From assembly GCF_900177665.1 (NCBI RefSeq), contig NZ_FXAW01000005.1, positions 186,001 through 250,000 on the forward strand: 64,000 nt of DNA. Reading direction: 5' to 3'. This stretch comes from Marivirga sericea. GTDB taxonomy: Bacteria; Bacteroidota; Bacteroidia; Cytophagales; Cyclobacteriaceae. This document shows positions 33,380-64,000 of the stretch, piece after piece. Position 1 is the first letter of the stretch, and every line of letters starts with the position of its first letter. The notes under the pieces were generated by a model, which was not told where the DNA came from, searched no databases, and saw only the letters and a list, made by a program, of their open reading frames with translations. The position numbers were made by a program, and so were the translations under genes.

Positions 33380-35959
33380 ATGCCTCATAATAATCAAATA
33401 CATCTGCAAGATTTCATGGACTTATCTTTGGATATAGTTTGCGTGATTAGTACAGACGGGAAATTCATTAATGTTAGTCAAGCCAGTAAAAGAATATGGG
33501 GCTATGACCGTGAGGAGTTAATCGGTAACTACTTTATAAATTACGTAGCAAAAGCTGACAGAATAGAAACCAAAGAAGTCGAAGAACAAATAAAAAACGG
33601 AAGAGAGGTAACTCATTTTGAAAACAACTATATTCATAAAGATGGAAGCTTAATACCCATAATTTGGTCAGCCAAGTTTGAGCCAAAAAAAGGACTGATC
33701 TTTTGCATTGCAAAAGATAACAGCCCAATAAAGAAAAGAGATATTGAGAAAGAGGAAATTATCCAATCTTCGCACGACATCATCAACGGCACTCAAAATT
33801 TAATCTGGTGTATTGATAAGAAGTATCAATTGCTTGACTTTAATAAGGCCATGAAAACACAATTTCAGGACAAATTCAACGTGCAATTAGAAGTTGGACA
33901 AAACATGGTCGATTTTCCACCTGATCATCAAGAATATATCAACAGATGGAAATCGCTTTATGATCAATGTTTAGCAGGTGAAACTATTTCAGTAGAAATT
34001 GCTCCATCAGAACACAAAAATGTGGAACCCTCCTGGGTTCACGCCAATCTTACGCCCATCTATGAGGGTGATGCAGTTAAAGGACTTGTCTGCCACAGCA
34101 CCGATATTACTGAAAAAAAGAAGATTGAATTAGAATTACAAAAGCAAAATGATCTAGTACAAAACATTTTGAAACATATTCCCATGGGTGTGGCGGTAAA
34201 CAAAATCAGCACTGGAAATCAAATTTTAATTAACCAGGAGTTTAGTAATACCTACGGCTGGCCAGAAAGTGAACTAACTGATGTCAATTCATTCTTCAAA
34301 AAAGTATATCCTGACCCCATTTATAGAAAAGAAATATCAGAAATGATAATTGAAGGGATTGAAAGCGGGGACATAAACAAAATGCGTTGGAATGAAATAA
34401 AAATCACCACTAAAAAAGGACAATCAAAATATGTAGATGCTAAAAACATCCCCTTAACCAATCAAGATTTGATGATTTCCACCGTAATGGATGTCACTCA
34501 AAAAGTTAATAACAAGAAAAAGATTGCCAATGCATTGGAAGAAAAGCAGAATATTTTAGAAAGTATTTCTGACGCATTTTACGCATTAGATAAAAATCTT
34601 AATTTCACTTATGTGAACGAAAGTGCTCTTAAAAGCATGAATAAATCACAAAATGATCTGATTGGCAAAAATTTATTTGAAGAATTCCCTCAACTAGGCA
34701 ACACTGTGTTTAAGGAATTTTTGAAGGAAGTTAAAAGAACCGGAAAACCTTCACAGTTTGAGTTTTACTATAAATACTATGATTTATGGTTTGACGAAAG
34801 CATTTATCCAAGCCGAGATGGCTATTCGATATACTACAAGGATATCACCAAAAGAAAGCTCATTACTGAAGCCTTAGAAGAAGCCTACGAAAAAGAGAGC
34901 CAAATATTAGAAAGTATATCTGATGCTTTTGTTGCAGTAGACCGAAATTTCAATTTCACCTATTTCAATAAAAAAGCAGAACAACTCTTAAATATTACAA
35001 GAGAAGAAGCATTGGGCAAAAATCAATGGGACTTATTTGAGTATGCGAAAGGTAGTATTGCTGAGCAAGAATACAATAAATCAATTCAAAACAACGAAAC
35101 GCGAACTTTTGATTTCTATAATGAACGCTTGAATATATGGCTGAACATCAGCAGCTATCCCTCAAAAAACGGATTATCAATCTATTTTCGAGATATCACT
35201 CAAGAAAAAAAACAGCGAAAAGAATTAGAAAGATTAAATGCCGAATTGAAAAGCTACACGCAAAAGCTAGAACAAAGCAATAAAGATTTAGAGCAATTTG
35301 CCTATATCGCTTCGCATGATTTGCAGGAACCATTGAGAATGGTATCAAGCTTCATGACTCAATTACAAAAGAAATATGAAGACCAACTCGATGAAAAAGG
35401 ACAGACTTATATTAATTTCGCAGTTGATGGCACACGAAGGATACGCCAAATAATTATTGATCTTTTAGAGTTCTCCCGAGCCGGGACACAAAATCAAAAA
35501 CTTGAGAAATTAGATCTAAATGAAGAATTAGCTGAAGTTTTGAGTTTGCATCACACAAATTTGAATAAGTACAACATTAATCTAGAAGTAGAAGACCTAC
35601 CAGAATTAGTTTATACAAAAACGGGCATTAGGCAGCTTTTTCATAACCTAATAGGGAATGCTATCAAATACAGAAGGAAAGAAGGGCAGGCAAATATCGC
35701 TGTGACCTGGAAAGATCATGATGAAGAATTCTTATTTGAAATAACTGATAATGGCATTGGCATAGATGAGAAATATGAAAACAAAATATTTCAAATATTT
35801 CAAAGATTACATTCCAAATCAGAATACTCTGGTACAGGTATAGGATTGGCGATTTGCAAAAAGATAGTTGAAAAGTATGGTGGTGAAATTTGGCTTAATT
35901 CTAAGCTTGGAATTGGCAGTACTTTTTGCTTTACTATACCTAAAAACATAAAACCATGA
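33380..35959 (+). CDS. Soluble multi-PAS sensor histidine kinase
   Basis: The 859-residue protein has no signal peptide or membrane helix, so it should be cytoplasmic. It has about five PAS domains in series: roughly residues 10-125, 140-245, 255-375, 390-495 and 510-615. The last two are closely similar, each opening with ILESISDAF. A coiled coil leads to the dimerisation domain with phospho-acceptor H646 in YIASHDLQEPLRMV. The ATPase domain has NAIKYR, DNGIGID and GTGIGLAICKK. It has no receiver domain. Its stop overlaps the start of the CheB-CheR fusion by 4 bases, and a receiver gene follows that, so the three form one signalling unit. The signal is unknown. Confidence 0.9.
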   Translation: MPHNNQIHLQDFMDLSLDIVCVISTDGKFINVSQASKRIWGYDREELIGNYFINYVAKADRIETKEVEEQIKNGREVTHFENNYIHKDGSLIPIIWSAKFEPKKGLIFCIAKDNSPIKKRDIEKEEIIQSSHDIINGTQNLIWCIDKKYQLLDFNKAMKTQFQDKFNVQLEVGQNMVDFPPDHQEYINRWKSLYDQCLAGETISVEIAPSEHKNVEPSWVHANLTPIYEGDAVKGLVCHSTDITEKKKIELELQKQNDLVQNILKHIPMGVAVNKISTGNQILINQEFSNTYGWPESELTDVNSFFKKVYPDPIYRKEISEMIIEGIESGDINKMRWNEIKITTKKGQSKYVDAKNIPLTNQDLMISTVMDVTQKVNNKKKIANALEEKQNILESISDAFYALDKNLNFTYVNESALKSMNKSQNDLIGKNLFEEFPQLGNTVFKEFLKEVKRTGKPSQFEFYYKYYDLWFDESIYPSRDGYSIYYKDITKRKLITEALEEAYEKESQILESISDAFVAVDRNFNFTYFNKKAEQLLNITREEALGKNQWDLFEYAKGSIAEQEYNKSIQNNETRTFDFYNERLNIWLNISSYPSKNGLSIYFRDITQEKKQRKELERLNAELKSYTQKLEQSNKDLEQFAYIASHDLQEPLRMVSSFMTQLQKKYEDQLDEKGQTYINFAVDGTRRIRQIIIDLLEFSRAGTQNQKLEKLDLNEELAEVLSLHHTNLNKYNINLEVEDLPELVYTKTGIRQLFHNLIGNAIKYRRKEGQANIAVTWKDHDEEFLFEITDNGIGIDEKYENKIFQIFQRLHSKSEYSGTGIGLAICKKIVEKYGGEIWLNSKLGIGSTFCFTIPKNIKP

Positions 35960-38900
35960 GCCAAAACAACAGTCCTATAATTGGAATAGGAGCCTCAGCT
36001 GGTGGCTTAGAGGCTTTAGAGCTATTTTTTAATCAAGTGGATAATAATGCAGGATATGCTTATGTGGTGATTCAGCACTTAGCGCCCAACCACAAAAGTC
36101 TAATGGATGAGTTATTGGCAAGACATACAACCCTACCAATAAAAGTTATAGAGGATGGTATGCCGGTTCAAGTCAATACGATTTACTTAAATCCTCCCAA
36201 AAAGTTTGTATCAGTTTCTAATGGGAAGTTAAAATTGAACGAAAAGGAAGATAGAAAATTAAGTTTTCCTATTACGACCTTTTTTCAATCATTGGCAGAA
36301 GAACAAAAAGAGAATTGTGCAGCCATCATACTTTCCGGGACAGGCAGTGATGGTTCAGAAGGAATAAAATTTATAAAAGAAAAAGGTGGGATCGTCTTAG
36401 TTCAAACACCTGAATCTGCAAAATTTGATGGAATGCCAAAAAACGCTATTCATACTAATTGTGTTGATAAAGTATGTGTGGTTGAAAATATGCATGAGGA
36501 AATAAAAGTGTTTTTCAACAGTCATAAAAAGCTTAGTTTGATAGACTTCCAAACCGAGAAAAACACCGAGCAAATCAAGAATATACTCAAGGAAGTCAAC
36601 AAAAAAACGTTAATAGATTTTTCCGGTTATAAATTCTCCACCATGTACAGGAGAACAATCCGAAGAATGGGCCTGCAAGGATTTAAAAATCTTGATGACT
36701 ACACGCACTACATTCAAACCCATTCCAATGAAGCCCCCCTTTTGGCTAAAGAACTATTGATCGGAGTTACTCGCTTCTTTCGCGATGGAGAAACCTTTGA
36801 AGTGCTGATGGATCAAGTTATTCCTAAATTAGTAGAGCAAAACTCCGAAACTAAAAATATTAGAGTTTGGGTTCCTGCTTGCTCTAGTGGGGAAGAAGCT
36901 TATTCAATTGCCATATTGATTAAAGATTATCTAAAGAAAAACAGCTTGCAGTATGATGTGAAAATTTTCGCTACTGATTTGGATGTTGATGCAATAAAGG
37001 TGGCTAGTAATCAGATTTTCCCAGAAAGCATAAGCAATGAAATCAATCCTTATCTACTAAATGCTTACTTTATTCGTCAGAAAGAAGGTTTTAAGGTTGC
37101 AAAAGAGATCAGAGATATGATCGTCTTTTCAGTGCATAATGTGATTCAGGACCCACCATTTAGTAAAATTGATCTATTAAGCTGCAGAAATTTTCTGATT
37201 TATTTAGAATCACCTATTCAGCAAAAATTATTCTCTTTATTTCGATTTACACTGGTTCAAAATGGCTTTTTATTACTAGGGGCTAGTGAGTCATTAGGAG
37301 AAACCCTGAAGGACTTTACAGAATTCGATAAGAAGCATAAAATCTACATCAATAAAATAAACATAAAAGTATTAAAGACAAACGGTCAAAACACGAATGA
37401 GAATACTATTCGAATGAAAAGGATGGCTAGTAGCTATAAATCTAGTAGTCAGGAAATTGAATCTCCCAAGTCCACTAAGAGAGTTTTAGAAAGTATTCAT
37501 GAGCACCTAATTCAGCAATATGTTCCAGACGCAGTTGTTTTCAATGACTATTTTGAGCTTATTCATACTACAGGAAATACTAATAAATGGCTTAGGCTTC
37601 CGATTGGTGAAGTAAGTATCAATATCATCCGAATGTTGCCAGAGGAATTCAGATTACCTTTTGAACTCGCGAGTAATAAATTGATGAGTGAACATAATTC
37701 CATCAATCTCAAGAATGTTGAAATCCCTAAGGAAATGATGGATATTTATGATAGCAAATTCATTAATATTAATTTGCGAATATTAGATGTCAGTCATTCC
37801 CCATTGTATATTGCTCTATTTGAAAGCCCAAAAATCAAACCAGATAAGAGGAAGATTAGAGAAGCTTCAGATATCGACTTGGACTTAGCCTCGAAAGAAA
37901 AAATTGGACTACTAGAAAGGGAATTAATAGTTAATAAAGAGAATCTTCAGACCACGATTGAAGAATTAGAATCAAGCAATGAAGAATTACAGGCTTCAAA
38001 TGAAGAATTGCAAAGCTCAAATGAAGAATTAGAATCAGTAAATGAGGAGTTATACACTGTCAATGCAGAATTTCAAGAAAAAGTCGAAGAATTAACGATT
38101 ACAAATAATGACTTAAATCATCTCATACAAAGTACAGATATAGCTATCCTATTTCTAGACACTGAATTGAAAATTCGGAAATTTACTCCTGCCATTAAAG
38201 AAATTTTGAACTTGGAAAATTCTGACATAGGTCGGCACATTAGCCATTTCAAGTCACATATACAGTTAGAAAAGTATGCTCATGAAATAGAAGAAGTTCA
38301 CCGTAATTTGCAACCGTTTGAGACAACTATTCAGGATCGATTTGAACGTAAGTTCATGGTCAGGATATCTCCATTTAGAACGGTTAAAAATGAAATTAAG
38401 GGTGTTGTGATATCCTTTATTGAAATTACTGCTTTTGCACAGGCAAAAGAGGATTTAAAATTTTCTAAAAGGGCACTTGATCAAGTTAATTTAAAATATG
38501 ACACTCAATTAGAACTGTTTGAAATCATCACTAATAATTCTAAAGATTTAATTGCTTTGCACAATGTAGAGGGCGCCTTCGAATATGTTTCACCCTCCGC
38601 TATAAATATCTCAGGATTGAACCAGACTGAACTGATTGGCATTCATCCTTTTGATTTTATCAAAATTAAAAGTGAACAAAAGATCTGGAAGGAAGCGTTT
38701 GAAAAAGTAAAAAGTGGAAAACAAGTTGGCCTCATTCAGTTAAAAATTATCAATAATAAAAAGCAAAAAAAATGGATTGAGGTAAGTTTCAAACCTGTAG
38801 AGGATCCTTCTGACAATATCAATAAGATTCTAGCTACCTACACCGATGTAAGTGATAGAATATATTTTGAAGAAGAACTACATAAGTTGTCACTTATTGC

Positions 38901-39978
38901 AAAGCAAACTAAGAATTCAGTTATCATTACTGATCTAGGAGGAAGAATAACCTATGTCAACCAATCATTTTTAAAGCTCACCGGATATGATGAGTCATTT
39001 GTGATGGGTAAAAAGCCAGGAAAATTTTTACAGGGAAAAGAAACTAATCCAAAGACCGTAAAAATCATGCGCGATGCAATAGAAGCCAAAAAGGGTTTTC
39101 AGGTTGATATTTTGAATTACAGTAAAATTGGATACAAATACTGGACGACAATTACCTGTGAACCACTGTTTGACCAACACGGAGAGACAATAGGATTTTT
39201 TTCTATTCAATATGAAATCAGTCACCAAAAAGAATACGAAGACCAAATTGAATCTTTAAATGAATTACTAAAATCTAGAAACAATAAATTATCCGAATTG
39301 AACAAATCACTTGAAGAGTTTGCTTACGTAGCTTCTCATGATTTGAAAGAACCTGCTAGAAATATCAAAAGCATGCTAGAATTAATTCTTAGGAAATCTG
39401 AAAACTCCTTGGATAAAAAATTAATGAACTATATGCAAATGGCTGCAGGAGCAGGTGACAAAATGAATCAAATGATTAATTCATTATTAGAATATTCCCG
39501 ATCAGGCGTGTTAAATGAGGAGTTGAAAACCATTACTATTAAAGAGTTGGCAGAAGAAGTGGAATTCTCTTTACAGAAGCTTATTAAGGAAAATAACACT
39601 GATATTATAATTAATGATGAAATTGGGAGTTTCAAAGCTTATCCTATCCTCTTCGGAAGATTATTGCAGAACTTGATTCAAAACGCGATAAAATATCGTT
39701 CAAAACAGAACCCAGAAATAAAAATTAATACAGCAGAAAATGAGCTATACTATTTGTTCTCAGTGGCTGACAACGGAATAGGTATTTCTGAAAGAAATTT
39801 TGACAGAGTATTCAAGATTTTTCAGAAGTTACATGATGGTGATCCCAACAGCTACGGCATTGGATTAGCTATTTGCAAAAAAATTGTGGAAACGCATCTA
39901 GGCGAGATTAAAATTGAAAGTCAAGAAGGTCTAGGAACTACTATTCATTTTAGCATTAGCAAGCAACTAGAAAACTAA
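35956..39978 (+). CDS. CheB-CheR-PAS-histidine kinase fusion protein
   Basis: A 1340-residue cytoplasmic fusion. Residues 1-190 form a CheB methylesterase domain with the complete triad S14 (GASAGG), H41 (QHLAPNH) and D132 (GTGSDGSEG), but no CheB receiver domain. Residues about 200-470 are a CheR methyltransferase with TRFFRDGE, ACSSGEEAYS (SAM site) and CRNFLIYL. A long heptad coiled coil at about 654-712 is built from repeats of SSNEELQ type. PAS domains follow at about 720-830, 860-965 and 980-1090. The last has a LOV-like PGKFLQG (about 1021-1027) without the photoactive Cys. The kinase core has H1128 in ASHDLKEP and GIGLAICKK. Such fusions are known in other phyla; the target protein is unknown. 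Confidence 0.92.
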   Translation: MSQNNSPIIGIGASAGGLEALELFFNQVDNNAGYAYVVIQHLAPNHKSLMDELLARHTTLPIKVIEDGMPVQVNTIYLNPPKKFVSVSNGKLKLNEKEDRKLSFPITTFFQSLAEEQKENCAAIILSGTGSDGSEGIKFIKEKGGIVLVQTPESAKFDGMPKNAIHTNCVDKVCVVENMHEEIKVFFNSHKKLSLIDFQTEKNTEQIKNILKEVNKKTLIDFSGYKFSTMYRRTIRRMGLQGFKNLDDYTHYIQTHSNEAPLLAKELLIGVTRFFRDGETFEVLMDQVIPKLVEQNSETKNIRVWVPACSSGEEAYSIAILIKDYLKKNSLQYDVKIFATDLDVDAIKVASNQIFPESISNEINPYLLNAYFIRQKEGFKVAKEIRDMIVFSVHNVIQDPPFSKIDLLSCRNFLIYLESPIQQKLFSLFRFTLVQNGFLLLGASESLGETLKDFTEFDKKHKIYINKINIKVLKTNGQNTNENTIRMKRMASSYKSSSQEIESPKSTKRVLESIHEHLIQQYVPDAVVFNDYFELIHTTGNTNKWLRLPIGEVSINIIRMLPEEFRLPFELASNKLMSEHNSINLKNVEIPKEMMDIYDSKFININLRILDVSHSPLYIALFESPKIKPDKRKIREASDIDLDLASKEKIGLLERELIVNKENLQTTIEELESSNEELQASNEELQSSNEELESVNEELYTVNAEFQEKVEELTITNNDLNHLIQSTDIAILFLDTELKIRKFTPAIKEILNLENSDIGRHISHFKSHIQLEKYAHEIEEVHRNLQPFETTIQDRFERKFMVRISPFRTVKNEIKGVVISFIEITAFAQAKEDLKFSKRALDQVNLKYDTQLELFEIITNNSKDLIALHNVEGAFEYVSPSAINISGLNQTELIGIHPFDFIKIKSEQKIWKEAFEKVKSGKQVGLIQLKIINNKKQKKWIEVSFKPVEDPSDNINKILATYTDVSDRIYFEEELHKLSLIAKQTKNSVIITDLGGRITYVNQSFLKLTGYDESFVMGKKPGKFLQGKETNPKTVKIMRDAIEAKKGFQVDILNYSKIGYKYWTTITCEPLFDQHGETIGFFSIQYEISHQKEYEDQIESLNELLKSRNNKLSELNKSLEEFAYVASHDLKEPARNIKSMLELILRKSENSLDKKLMNYMQMAAGAGDKMNQMINSLLEYSRSGVLNEELKTITIKELAEEVEFSLQKLIKENNTDIIINDEIGSFKAYPILFGRLLQNLIQNAIKYRSKQNPEIKINTAENELYYLFSVADNGIGISERNFDRVFKIFQKLHDGDPNSYGIGLAICKKIVETHLGEIKIESQEGLGTTIHFSISKQLEN
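37965..38063 (+). repeat. Heptad-encoding DNA repeats in the CheB-CheR fusion coiled coil
   Basis: Several near-identical 21-base units encoding the heptad SSNEELQ/ASNEELQ/SVNEEL occur in tandem inside the coding sequence. They form the signalling coiled coil between the CheR and PAS parts. Such repeats can slip in replication and alter helix phase, though here the frame is intact. Confidence 0.7.
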
Positions 39979-59432: not shown

Positions 59433-60278
59433 TCAACGCTTTCTAAAAACCCTTTGCCGTAAATCATAGTATTCGAACTTTTCGTCAGTTAAATAACTCA
59501 GCATACTATCAAGAAACCCAATAATAAGAAACCCGCCAGGCTTTAAAGCTCTATAAATCTTTGCAATTACTTTTTCTTTAGCAGGTCCATCGAAATATAT
59601 CAAAACATTTCTACAGAAAATTATATCATATTGATTATCCCCATAGTCCTCCATAATTAAATTAGAGTTCTTGAAAGTTACCTTCTCAAGAAATTTTGGT
59701 ATGAATACAATGCCCCCCTCTCCTTCGGTGAAATACTTATCCAGTCTAGCATTAGATTGGTATAATTTCAAATTTCTTTCGTACTCCGGTAATTTGGCTT
59801 GAATAATCTTCCCGCTTGCTGCCGTTTTTAATGCATTGGAAGAAATATCAGTTGCTATACTTTTCACTTTTCCAGTGAACCCTAACTCATCCCAGACAAT
59901 AGCTGAGGTATAAATTTCCTCTCCAGAAGAGCATCCGGCATGCCACACATTGATTCGATATTGTTCTGAAAAATGATCTTTACAAACTTTTTTAAAGGTT
60001 TGCCAAAATTCAGGATCTCTAAAAAGAGAAGTTAAGCCAACAGAAACCTCGTTTATAAAATCATGGACAAAATCTTTGTCTTTCAGAGTTCTACTCCACA
60101 AATCAAAGCTTGACGTGAAATTGAATTTTCTATATATTCTCTGTAATCTTCTTTTGAAAGATTTGGGTTCATAATTAAAAAAATCTATGCTGTACCTTTT
60201 CATAATTGCATCCTGAATAGAACGCATTTCTTCATCAGTAATCTCTACTCCCGTTGATATAGTGTTATCAGTTGACAT
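59433..60278 (-). CDS. cheR: CheR-type chemoreceptor methyltransferase
   Basis: CheR methylates glutamates of chemoreceptors with SAM to adjust sensitivity. The 281-residue protein has the N-terminal all-helical CheR domain (about 15-75; KRLQRIYRKFNF). The SAM-binding half holds AGCSSGEEIYTSA (SAM glycine/serine loop), SIATDISSNALKTAA and CRNVLIYFDG. There is no PAS or TPR extension. It is the last gene of the chemosensory operon, and its start overlaps the upstream PAS-array gene by 11 bases. No classical methyl-accepting receptor is visible in the window, so its target is open. Confidence 0.92.
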   Translation of the reverse strand: MSTDNTISTGVEITDEEMRSIQDAIMKRYSIDFFNYEPKSFKRRLQRIYRKFNFTSSFDLWSRTLKDKDFVHDFINEVSVGLTSLFRDPEFWQTFKKVCKDHFSEQYRINVWHAGCSSGEEIYTSAIVWDELGFTGKVKSIATDISSNALKTAASGKIIQAKLPEYERNLKLYQSNARLDKYFTEGEGGIVFIPKFLEKVTFKNSNLIMEDYGDNQYDIIFCRNVLIYFDGPAKEKVIAKIYRALKPGGFLIIGFLDSMLSYLTDEKFEYYDLRQRVFRKR

Positions 60279-63183
60279 TTTTCAGTTTTAATTGTTGCTC
60301 TACCATACCTGTGAATAGAATAATAATTTTATCTAACTCTAAATCCAAGTTTTGGACAGCTGCTATACTGACATTTGACTCTACCCAATCACCCTGCTGA
60401 GTTTGAAACTTTAGAGTAGTTTCCACTCGTTTACCATTCTGTAATTCCTTTAAAATAGATTTAGACGAAAATCCTTTCTCAAGTTTAAAGCTATCACTAA
60501 AATCAACACTTTTTAAACTCATTCTACTATAACCGGATGCTTCAAAAAACAAAGGATTAGCATTTTTTAAGCTGAAATCTGTATTCAATTCCAATATTGG
60601 AATCACTCCTTTCATGGCTGTTACTGAACCACCAAGGTCATTAAGCTTCTGCTTTTCTTTAGTGGTAAATTGAGCCAGTAAAAGTACCTTTTCTAAATTG
60701 TTGGCATTATCGTAAATTGGATTGATAGTACCTGAAAGCCAAACTTCATGACCTTGCTTATCCACTTGTTTAAATTCCCCTGAGAAAAACTTTCCGTTCT
60801 GAAGACTCTCCCACATTAATTGATATTGAGGTTTAAACCTATCTTTTTCCGGTAATAAATCAAAATACGACTTGCCTTGGATATCCTCCATTTTAAAACC
60901 GGTTATACTTAAATAGATTTCATTAGCCGTCACTATTTTTCCTTTTTTATCAAACTCTAGAGAACCAATGGTTTTATTAATCGCTTCCATGTGGTTCATG
61001 AGTTCAACTTGTTGTCGTTGATTTTCCAATTCCAGCCTTTTCTCTTGGGTAATATCAGTAGCAAACTTCACCACTTTAATCGCATTACCATTAATATCAA
61101 AGATTGGATTAAAAACTCCTTTTAATATCACTTTCTTTCCGGATTTAGTATAGCGTTCAAATTCTCCGGTAATAAATTCACCCTGTGCTAATCGCGACCA
61201 CAAATTCTTATATTCTGTTGATTTCGCCATATACTGATCAACCATTACTTCGTGATGCTTTCCAATCAGCTCGTCTTTTTCAAATCCCACTATATCTAAA
61301 TAATTTTGATTAGCATCGAGTACAAACCCATTAGTATCAAACTCAATGACAGCATTTGATCTACCAATAGCTTCCAGCTTATATTTAGCATCCAAAGCGG
61401 ACTTCTTAGTAGCAGTAATATCAGCCTGAACAGCTATGTAATTCTTCAATTCTCCGTTTTCATCTCTTACTGGATTGATAGCTAAGGAAACCCAGTATGT
61501 CCTTCCATCTTTACTGTAATTAAGAATTTCCTCGTAAATTGGTTTTTGCTCTTTCAGTAGCTGACTGATTTTCCACTTCGTCTCTTGATTAGTTTCAGGA
61601 CCTTGTAAAAATTCACCAGGCTTTTTCCCAACAATTTCATTAAGTGTGTAACCAGTCATATTTTCAAAACCAGAATTGACATATTCTATCAACCCGTCTT
61701 TATCAGTAATAATCACTGAGTTATCAGTATTATCTGCCACCAATGATAACCTTCTTTGTTCTTCTTCATTAGCTATACGTTCTGAAATATCCTGACCTAG
61801 CAAAAGCACCTTACTAAGATTACCAGCCGCATCCAAAACAGGTGAATAGGAAGCTTCAATCCATACTTTCTCTTTTTTGGAGGTGCGGGTCTCAAATTCA
61901 ACAATATGGTTATTCCCTGTCTGCACTCTACTCCAAACCTCATTGCATAGATCAGCATTTTTACAAATATGGCTATGCCTTTTATTCTTAATCTCCGTTT
62001 CTTCCCATTTCAGAAAATCAATAAACTTTTGATTGGTAGCAATAACATTACCTTCAATATCAAATTCCGCTTTAAGTAAAGTGTTATTAATTGCGCTGAA
62101 TACACCATCCAATTCCATTTGATTACGCGCCATTTCTTCCTGAGTAGCCTCCATTTCTTCCATATTCTGGCGCATCTCCTCTTCATTGGCCTGCAATTCG
62201 CTGGACATCTTCTGCGACTTTTCAAGCAATAACTGCGTATTCTCATTAACTTGAATCACAGCTACCGAAGCAGCAATGTTTTTGGCCAAATCTTTCAAAA
62301 AATCAATTTGATAATCTTCCAAAATTTGAAAAGACGCCAGCTCCATTGCTCCTACCATCTTCTCATCGCTTATTAATGGAATAATTATGATGTGTCGCGG
62401 TAGTGCATGACCTAATCCTGAGGTGATTTTAACATATTGCTCAGGGACATCAGTAATGTAAATCAAATCTTTTTCCTGCATGCACTGACCCACAAGGCCC
62501 TCTCCTTTTGAAATTCGCTTCCTAGCCAGCTTTCTTCGTTCATATGCATAGCAACCTATCATATCTAGGTATTCTTCGTCTTCATCCTGGCCGGCCAAGA
62601 ATAGAGCTCCCTGATTCCCGTTAATGTACTTTACAGTTTCACTAATAATGTGGAAACCGAAATCTTTTATATTTTCATTATAGCTGCGAAGTAATTCGGA
62701 AAATTTAGCTAAACCTTCCGCTTGCCAGGTACGCTTCTCTTCTTTACTTCTGAATTTGATTAGCTCAGACTGGAGATTTACGACCGCTTTAGAGAGTTCA
62801 TCATCATTCTCAGCTGCCAATTCAAGCTTCCCACCTTCTGCTATAGTGTTGATCCATTCGGTTGCTTGCTTTATTTTCTGCCTGTTGGTCAAAATATCCT
62901 GATAAAAATTTCGAGTCCATGTATTAGAAGACTTGATTTCAAATACAGTGTCCGATACGCTCAAATCAGTACCTAAATCAGAAATCTGCTTTATTGCACT
63001 TCTTTCTCGCTTATAGCTTATCATCATTACGAAGAAAAATACAAATGCCGCAGCGTAAATAGTAAGGTGGTAGTAAGGATTTAAATTTTGTAATACCAGA
63101 GTTAGCAAAATGCTGGAAATGAGCATCACCAGAATTCCACTAAGGCCTACTATTAAAAATTTATGGGTTCGATCAATTTGCAT
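60268..63183 (-). CDS. Membrane GAF and multi-PAS sensor protein without kinase or MCP output
   Basis: The 971-residue protein has two N-terminal membrane helices (about 10-30 and 36-53). A coiled segment and a GAF domain (about 155-315) follow. A heptad-rich coil (about 320-360; MRQNMEEMEATQEEMARNQ) leads to about five PAS domains (about 360-475, 485-600, 605-720, 730-845 and 850-965). The second PAS has PGEFLQG (LOV-like, no reactive Cys). There is no histidine kinase, GGDEF, or MCP signalling hairpin that I can recognise. It sits between a CheC-like gene and cheR with 11-base overlaps on both sides, in the position of a receptor. It may feed CheA by its coiled coil; this is inference. Confidence 0.85.
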   Translation of the reverse strand: MQIDRTHKFLIVGLSGILVMLISSILLTLVLQNLNPYYHLTIYAAAFVFFFVMMISYKRERSAIKQISDLGTDLSVSDTVFEIKSSNTWTRNFYQDILTNRQKIKQATEWINTIAEGGKLELAAENDDELSKAVVNLQSELIKFRSKEEKRTWQAEGLAKFSELLRSYNENIKDFGFHIISETVKYINGNQGALFLAGQDEDEEYLDMIGCYAYERRKLARKRISKGEGLVGQCMQEKDLIYITDVPEQYVKITSGLGHALPRHIIIIPLISDEKMVGAMELASFQILEDYQIDFLKDLAKNIAASVAVIQVNENTQLLLEKSQKMSSELQANEEEMRQNMEEMEATQEEMARNQMELDGVFSAINNTLLKAEFDIEGNVIATNQKFIDFLKWEETEIKNKRHSHICKNADLCNEVWSRVQTGNNHIVEFETRTSKKEKVWIEASYSPVLDAAGNLSKVLLLGQDISERIANEEEQRRLSLVADNTDNSVIITDKDGLIEYVNSGFENMTGYTLNEIVGKKPGEFLQGPETNQETKWKISQLLKEQKPIYEEILNYSKDGRTYWVSLAINPVRDENGELKNYIAVQADITATKKSALDAKYKLEAIGRSNAVIEFDTNGFVLDANQNYLDIVGFEKDELIGKHHEVMVDQYMAKSTEYKNLWSRLAQGEFITGEFERYTKSGKKVILKGVFNPIFDINGNAIKVVKFATDITQEKRLELENQRQQVELMNHMEAINKTIGSLEFDKKGKIVTANEIYLSITGFKMEDIQGKSYFDLLPEKDRFKPQYQLMWESLQNGKFFSGEFKQVDKQGHEVWLSGTINPIYDNANNLEKVLLLAQFTTKEKQKLNDLGGSVTAMKGVIPILELNTDFSLKNANPLFFEASGYSRMSLKSVDFSDSFKLEKGFSSKSILKELQNGKRVETTLKFQTQQGDWVESNVSIAAVQNLDLELDKIIILFTGMVEQQLKLKNVN

Positions 63184-63781
63184 AATTTAGTTTTTTTTGG
63201 TTCAACACTGAGTAGAACTGCTTATCTAAAATCCAGATAAAATATGGATTGATTTTCATATTTCCCTCAAATGAAAAATTGGCTGATGATAGAATGGCAA
63301 ACATATCTTCATGATGCTCAATTTCATTTTGCAACCAAGCTCGATCTGCTTCCTTAGGAAAGATCATTTTAGGAACATCTCCATATATTTTTAAATCCAG
63401 TTGATTGGATAATTCCGTAATCACTGCAGCAGACACCATATTATCAACCTCCTTGAGGATAATCTCTGCATAATCAGGATTGGATTGCAAACTCTTCATT
63501 TTTTGAATCAACATATCAGGGACAGCCTGCGCATCTGCCTCACTAAAAACTAAATAACTTCGCCCTTTTGCTTCACCAATAATATCTGTTGTCAAAATAG
63601 AGGGGTTCTTTGTTTTAATTATTTTTTGTAAGAAATCTGGTCCTTCTCCCAAAAACAATTCGAAGTTCTTAATGCTTACAGGTGCTCCTGATAAACTAGA
63701 AAAGGACTGACTTGCCTTTTCGTATCCTTTAAGGAAGATCTCCTGCGCTACCGATTTTAATTCTTTACTAATTTTTTCCAT
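63173..63781 (-). CDS. CheC-like phosphatase domain protein
   Basis: CheC-family proteins remove phosphate from CheY. The 202-residue protein has one well-kept active-site helix: EVDNMVSAAVITELSNQL has the E-x-x-N pair of the family followed by a Pro in GDVPKM. The other half (SQSFSSLSGAPVSI) resembles the degenerate first site. It might also be read as a CheX-like protein. It lies 5 bases after the CheA C-terminus and overlaps the PAS-array gene by 11 bases. The gene order CheA, CheC-like, receptor-like, CheR supports a chemosensory role. Confidence 0.78.
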   Translation of the reverse strand: MEKISKELKSVAQEIFLKGYEKASQSFSSLSGAPVSIKNFELFLGEGPDFLQKIIKTKNPSILTTDIIGEAKGRSYLVFSEADAQAVPDMLIQKMKSLQSNPDYAEIILKEVDNMVSAAVITELSNQLDLKIYGDVPKMIFPKEADRAWLQNEIEHHEDMFAILSSANFSFEGNMKINPYFIWILDKQFYSVLNQKKLNYAN

Positions 63782-63786
63782 ATGAT

Positions 63787-64000
63787 TTAAGCTACAGCAG
63801 TAGCGTTTACGTTGACTGAATGATTGAATAGTTTTTGCACAATTTGAGGTATGTTAATTACAAGACATACCTTACCATTTCCCAGAATGGTTACGCCACT
63901 AACGTAGCGTACAAAATCGACAGGCTTCTTTAAAGGTTTCTCAACTATTTCTTTCTGCTGCAATAATTTATCGACTACCAATCCTAATTTTTTACCATTG
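63787..64000 (-). CDS. cheA: CheA histidine kinase, C-terminal part (runs off the window)
   Basis: The last 71 codons of a gene that enters from the right edge. The reading frame is open to base 64000. LVVDKLLQQKEIVEKPL and VSGVTILGNGKVCLVINI are the end of a CheW-like P5 domain. The KEIVEKPL and G-V-T-I-L-G-N-G-x-V series is the CheA form rather than stand-alone CheW. CheA autophosphorylates and passes phosphate to CheY and CheB. Only the C-terminus is seen, so the kinase core cannot be checked. Confidence 0.75.
   Translation of the reverse strand, partial: NGKKLGLVVDKLLQQKEIVEKPLKKPVDFVRYVSGVTILGNGKVCLVINIPQIVQKLFNHSVNVNATAVA

Follow-up and report, generated by a model that had tools for sequence, protein, structure and literature searches.

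CetA/CetB of Campylobacter jejuni is a bipartite energy-taxis receptor and a precedent for a split receptor (PMC2628428), a two-protein receptor is reported in magnetotactic bacteria (PMC12442639), and Rhodobacter sphaeroides and Vibrio cholerae possess cytoplasmic chemoreceptor arrays (PMC3964821). Here we compare with these systems a chemosensory (che) operon of Marivirga sericea, a member of the Cytophagales, whose downstream part lies at one end of the 64,000-nucleotide stretch that was analysed (the window, C9:186001-250000; the genome comprises 4.74 Mb on 26 contigs) and which encodes a 971-residue membrane protein next to cheR. No description of this operon was found in the titles and abstract starts of the open-licence literature or in passages of PMC9239204.

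The operon is very probably a single-receptor system in which a methyl-accepting chemotaxis protein (MCP) is the receptor and the 971-residue protein an accessory component. Beyond the window the operon continues for about 6 kb through the rest of cheA, cheB, cheY, cheD, cheW and an MCP gene, giving the transcription order MCP-cheW-cheD-cheY-cheB-cheA-cheC-PAS protein-cheR (locus record L002; window position = L002 position + 57999). The product of the first gene has a PAS-PAS-hairpin architecture with no predicted transmembrane (TM) helix, TM segments being identified by simple hydropathy (window of 19 residues, mean 1.6) instead of a trained predictor, a procedure that did pick up the membrane proteins. 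No other protein of the genome matches PF00015 (5.6e-39 for this one), and CheW-domain matches in the genome are confined to the CheW and CheA of the operon. The MCP frame has 665 residues, and translation probably starts at internal Met 24, because the MCPs of the relatives L162 and L163 have 642. Near the C terminus lie two perfect sites (AAGTQQVASS and ASSSQELNAG) for the methylation consensus, for which the generally known pattern was used; at least one such site stands in the last 330 residues of 62 of the 81 MCP frames longer than 300 residues from 85 unmerged loci, the other 19 having none under the strict pattern.

The first-pass annotation, made from the window, had the 971-residue protein standing in place of a chemoreceptor and left the methylation target of CheR unclear. 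Since the sole MCP of the genome has two methylation sites, the target of CheR is evident and the 971-residue protein does not stand in for a receptor, so neither claim survives; an MCP gene upstream of cheA is what that annotation had itself named as contrary to its proposal. The candidate of receptor replacement was accordingly rejected on the MCP gene found in the operon beyond the window. That the protein feeds CheA directly in a receptor's stead could be argued from its gene adjoining cheR and from the want of an MCP gene between positions 59433 and 64000, but we regard this as extremely improbable given an MCP gene in the same operon that is the only one in the genome, a protein that has no hairpin, and an MCP in the stretch of 22 of 24 operons that have no protein of the 971-residue type.

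The annotation's observation that the protein has no recognisable MCP hairpin is borne out by three approaches. Pfam gives GAF_2 (6.1e-14) and repeated PAS matches with no PF00015 at 0.01; the AlphaFold model (predicted local distance difference test score [pLDDT], 77; predicted template modelling score, 0.32) has two N-terminal helices, a GAF domain, a long helix at residues 290-368 and five PAS-like units reaching to residue 958, and no antiparallel hairpin; and an MCP model trained with the operon's own MCP scores the protein at 1.0 bit versus 492.6 for that MCP. The two segments in which an MCP-like coil had been thought possible contain none: at residues 316-360 the MCP model reaches at best 3.4 bits (residues 310-354), and at residues 846-971 it gives nothing, AlphaFold having residues 863-958 folded as a PAS-like unit. 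The methylation consensus is absent from the 971-residue protein and from all 40 membrane GAF-coil proteins of the loci described below. A segment-wise scan of the MCPs from 34 loci turned up no fusion of the TM-GAF module with an MCP; the coil of the GAF-coil protein occurs by itself in several of these MCPs, not in the MCP of M. sericea.

The second of two PAS domains in the MCP (PASb, residues ~199-305) matches MmoS (3ewk, 5.6e-29) and Aer (8dik, 1.9e-26; 31cj, an Aer PAS, is also matched), Aer itself being membrane bound with one PAS domain, unlike the operon MCP. PAS2 of the 971-residue protein matches LOV domains and has Gly where the compared LOV entries have Ala (three alignments shown), at a position that we take to be the photoactive Cys site. 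These matches suggest that both PASb and PAS2 may bind flavin.

The coordinates (Table 1) confirm the gene order that had been annotated in the window, with 5 bases between the cheA stop (63787, L002:5788) and the start of the CheC-like gene and two 11-base overlaps, at 60268-60278 (cheR and the 971-residue protein gene) and 63173-63183 (the latter and the CheC-like gene). Because L162-L164, the closest relatives, share both overlaps, chance does not account for the arrangement. The nearest named loci from cultured strains are those of Marivirga arenosa (92%) and M. aurantiaca (90%).

Table 1. Features of the che operon of M. sericea, in window positions unless marked L002
Feature	Position	Strand	Basis or remark
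cheR, methyltransferase of 281 residues	59433..60278	-	Pfam PF01739, 7.9e-37
2TM-linker-GAF-coil-PAS5 protein of 971 residues, probably an accessory membrane sensor, without MCP hairpin	60268..63183	-	Pfam, structure model, MCP model
Coil, residues 316-365 of the 971-residue protein	62089..62238	-	within the long helix 290-368; no MCP hairpin
CheC-fold protein of 202 residues, putatively CheY-P phosphatase-like	63173..63781	-	Pfam, alignment, AlphaFold model, fold match
cheA, 3' end (607 residues in full, L002:5788-7611)	63787..64000	-	Pfam
cheB, cheY, cheD, cheW, PAS-PAS-MCP gene	L002:7624-11989		upstream of cheA, outside window

For comparison with other members of the order, CheA was sought in 148 genomes (threshold, 1e-80) and matched in 38 of them, though in 0 of 10 other members of the family that were drawn, and PF00015 was sought in 49 genomes that included all 38. 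Loci were sampled by CheA or by the MCP stretch, not by the membrane protein; the locus of M. sericea, 33 of 38 other CheA places listed and 51 named loci found via the MCP stretch made up 85, which merged at 95% into 69 distinct loci. An MCP is visible in 64 of the 69, with no predicted TM helix in 64 of 64, and is present in 55 of the 60 distinct loci that hold CheA. The side downstream of cheA is visible in 54 of those 60 (the sequence extends to cheR or for 4.5 kb or more past cheA); the 15 of the 69 loci that were excluded, having too little sequence after cheA or no CheA in the stretch, include two (L087 and L188) that carry the membrane protein.

In CetA/CetB, PAS sensing and MCP signaling reside on two co-encoded proteins, one of which bears a two-helix membrane anchor, and here likewise a hairpin-less PAS protein is encoded together with an MCP. 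There, however, it is the MCP that is anchored, with a peripheral PAS protein, whereas in the operon of M. sericea, as read from sequence, the MCP has no predicted TM helix (nor has any MCP of the 64 loci above) and has two PAS domains of its own, and its partner has two TM helices, a GAF domain and five PAS domains. The likeness to the arrays of R. sphaeroides and V. cholerae is that MCPs without TM helices couple to CheA and CheW; those cytoplasmic arrays are additional to membrane arrays, whereas 28 of the 38 CheA genomes here have exactly one PF00015 match, TM status being taken from MCPs within the stretches, with the few genomes whose MCP lies away from the cheA stretch excluded.

By what is known of these families, the MCP, with its second PAS of the Aer/MmoS type, would form cytoplasmic arrays with CheW and CheA; CheA would phosphorylate CheY, CheC would take the phosphate off CheY, and CheR, CheB and CheD would adapt the MCP. 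The 971-residue protein and the MCP would then make up one receptor from two proteins, its membrane-bound portion lying on the PAS side, an inversion of the CetA/CetB-like split. We propose tentatively, and with somewhat less than even confidence, that the 971-residue protein is a membrane-anchored, hairpin-less co-sensor that informs the soluble array, via PAS or coil contacts, about membrane or redox state.

Two lines of evidence bear on whether the 971-residue protein is a component of the operon at all. The membrane protein is present in 30 of the 54 operons whose downstream side is visible, and on a tree of 55 GAF-coil rows, with paralogs chosen by likeness to the query, 14 operon copies from eight families fall on one side (support, 67/72). 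The operon trait requires one change on this tree, versus a shuffled mean of 12.6, and 0 of 500 shuffles were as low; the training rows of the GAF-coil model include these 14 copies. Taken with the conserved slot in the operon, the single branch indicates that the protein is a real component. It is accessory because many related operons without it retain an MCP, and its 10 changes on the CheA tree, a quick build whose long branches may be misplaced, imply frequent gain or loss, as for an accessory part and not a core receptor. A trade-off with MCP length was rejected, since the lengths with the membrane protein (633-1276 residues) and without it (665-2090) overlap in range, no statistical test being applied.

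Alternatively, the 971-residue protein might be a bystander, one more output-less GAF-coil-PAS paralog, from a family expanded in this lineage, that has lodged in the operon and has no part in the pathway. The genome contains 13 GAF-coil matches including the operon copy, and 11 of the 12 others have no output domain, so the operon copy is not exceptional in having none; it is moreover missing from the remaining 24 of the 54 operons. A bystander is nevertheless improbable, in that the gene occupies the same slot, overlapping or closely spaced, in operons of eight families and on one branch.

Several observations, those paralogs among them, weigh against the reading of a single MCP with an accessory membrane protein. 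The contact of the 971-residue protein with the MCP, CheA or CheW is one that we only infer. The TM-GAF-coil stretch is matched in 95 of the 148 genomes, some of which have no CheA match, and more than one MCP match occurs in 10 of the 38 CheA genomes. The 24 operons without the membrane protein include 11 with cheR and 13 with neither; in the 11, spacings of -14 to 184 bases from cheA or cheC to cheR leave no room for a membrane-protein gene. The operon branch, at only 67/72 and with a bootstrap that has not settled, is not strongly supported, and a second GAF-coil protein in L072, encoded upstream of the MCP, was scored as a paralog in the tree. This second membrane protein was seen in Rhodocytophaga aerolata (L072:17621-19900 and L195).

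Ten of the 12 other GAF-coil proteins of M. sericea were scanned (L115-L124), and at a threshold of 0.001 an enzymatic, DNA-binding or MCP signaling domain is present in 0 of 10; one matches the sensory domain 4HB_MCP_1, nine have a hydrophobic TM-like stretch and four a HAMP match. The shared coil of these ten output-less GAF-coil(-PAS) proteins reads about EEEMRQNMEELQATQEEM. The remaining two matches adjoin one another on contig C11, one ending in SpoIIE and the other being a 279-residue GAF protein.

A further possibility is that the 971-residue protein works on the adaptation side, as a membrane tether for CheR, CheC or both, or as a CheR substrate methylated on its coil. Its gene is flanked by cheC and cheR (in L066 it follows cheR), and cheR is present in 29 of the 30 operons with the membrane protein (the exception is L081), while 13 of the 24 without the protein also lack cheR. 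On the CheA tree, however, this link is not independent: in seven independent pairs cheR differs in the same way as the membrane protein in about two, in the opposite way in none and not at all in five, and an association of the membrane protein with either cheR or cheB was rejected on that ground. The MCP methylation consensus is likewise missing from the 40 membrane GAF-coil proteins, nor do all 14 aligned operon copies keep the coil's Glu pairs. We consider a role in adaptation rather unlikely, with a further argument for it in a locus at C11.

That locus (L125:2278-9287, outside the window) runs cheR, a methylesterase-only cheB, the 279-residue GAF protein, a SpoIIE protein (dCache-HAMP-GAF-coil-PAS-PAS-SpoIIE), a DUF6272 protein that is presumably SiaB-like, and SiaC, followed by a gene for an ABC transporter-like protein. 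A CheR match is present in 25 of 26 genomes, and in 20 of the 25 the neighborhood of a single stand-alone CheR frame, similar in length to that of C11, was examined. The cheR-cheB-GAF genes occur together in 19 of the 20, with CheR identities of 62-73% to that of C11 (43% in the other, L232), and the complete set through SiaC in 16. All eight genomes without a PF00015 match are among the 20; the set is complete in seven of them, and L217, the eighth, has cheR-cheB-GAF. Genomes in which no MCP is found thus retain CheR and CheB. Retention of the cheR-cheB-GAF-coil-SpoIIE-siaB-siaC locus without MCP matches, which also speaks for a role of the 971-residue protein in adaptation, implies that CheR may have non-MCP substrates in this order; methylation at the locus is our proposal. 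In the coil of the SpoIIE clade, 12 of 14 proteins read (of 17) have Glu recurring at three steps of seven residues, and the MCP consensus was not found in the SpoIIE-clade frames checked, a filter having left out five of the 17. The titles and abstract starts of the open-licence literature do not tie CheR to SiaA or SiaC. It is possible, if doubtful, that CheR systems of the Cytophagales have membrane GAF-coil proteins, not MCPs, as partners or substrates, which would provide the sole membrane input of the che operon and, in MCP-free genomes, let CheR and CheB tune the GAF-coil-SpoIIE phosphatase of a SiaABC-like switch.

CheR is matched four times in the genome of M. sericea: in the operon, beside cheB at C11, weakly (28.8 bits) at C8, and in a 1340-residue CheB-CheR-PAS-histidine kinase hybrid at 35956-39978 of the same window.

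The 202-residue protein matches Pfam CheX at 0.0018, below the family cut-off. Its AlphaFold model (pLDDT, 88) superimposes on Thermotoga maritima CheC (1xkr) with an E value of 7.6e-13 and a template modelling score of 0.75, and E111 and N114 of the ExxN motif are present in every one of the 26 sequences aligned. By its modelled fold and this motif it is a putative member of the CheC/CheX/FliY family and may be a CheY-P phosphatase. It has the fold and ExxN motif in common with T. maritima CheC and CheC-CheD (2f9z), and a cheD gene is present in the same operon; it differs in that identity to the 1xkr and 2f9z chains is 15-18% and in that its own copy has one ExxN only, as read by eye.

Among the sampled loci, the operon MCPs of L068-L071, L094 and L095 are 1840-2090 residues long, contain about 11-13 PAS-like units and are without predicted TM helices, and these stretches lack cheR, cheB and the membrane protein. 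Those of L082 and L088-L092, also without predicted TM helices, have five to nine stretches matching the pre-hairpin segment, many at 92-residue steps. L212, a record titled as a Thalassovita sp. metagenome-assembled genome, carries this Bacteroidota-type operon and is perhaps a wrongly binned contig.

The output of the operon is probably gliding or gene control and not flagella, because neither FliG nor PilT is matched and GldL is present (3.4e-78, 263.8 bits); GldJ-family matches fall below the cut-off, and two unrelated control genomes match as well. These results are consistent with the suggestion of the first-pass annotation that the operon serves gliding or gene control rather than swimming. 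Systems with a single soluble MCP offer a simple natural setting for asking how the membrane feeds a soluble receptor array and how CheY output reaches gliding or another nonflagellar machine. With a cheR-cheB locus conserved in genomes that have no MCP match, receptor methylation outside the MCPs becomes directly testable.

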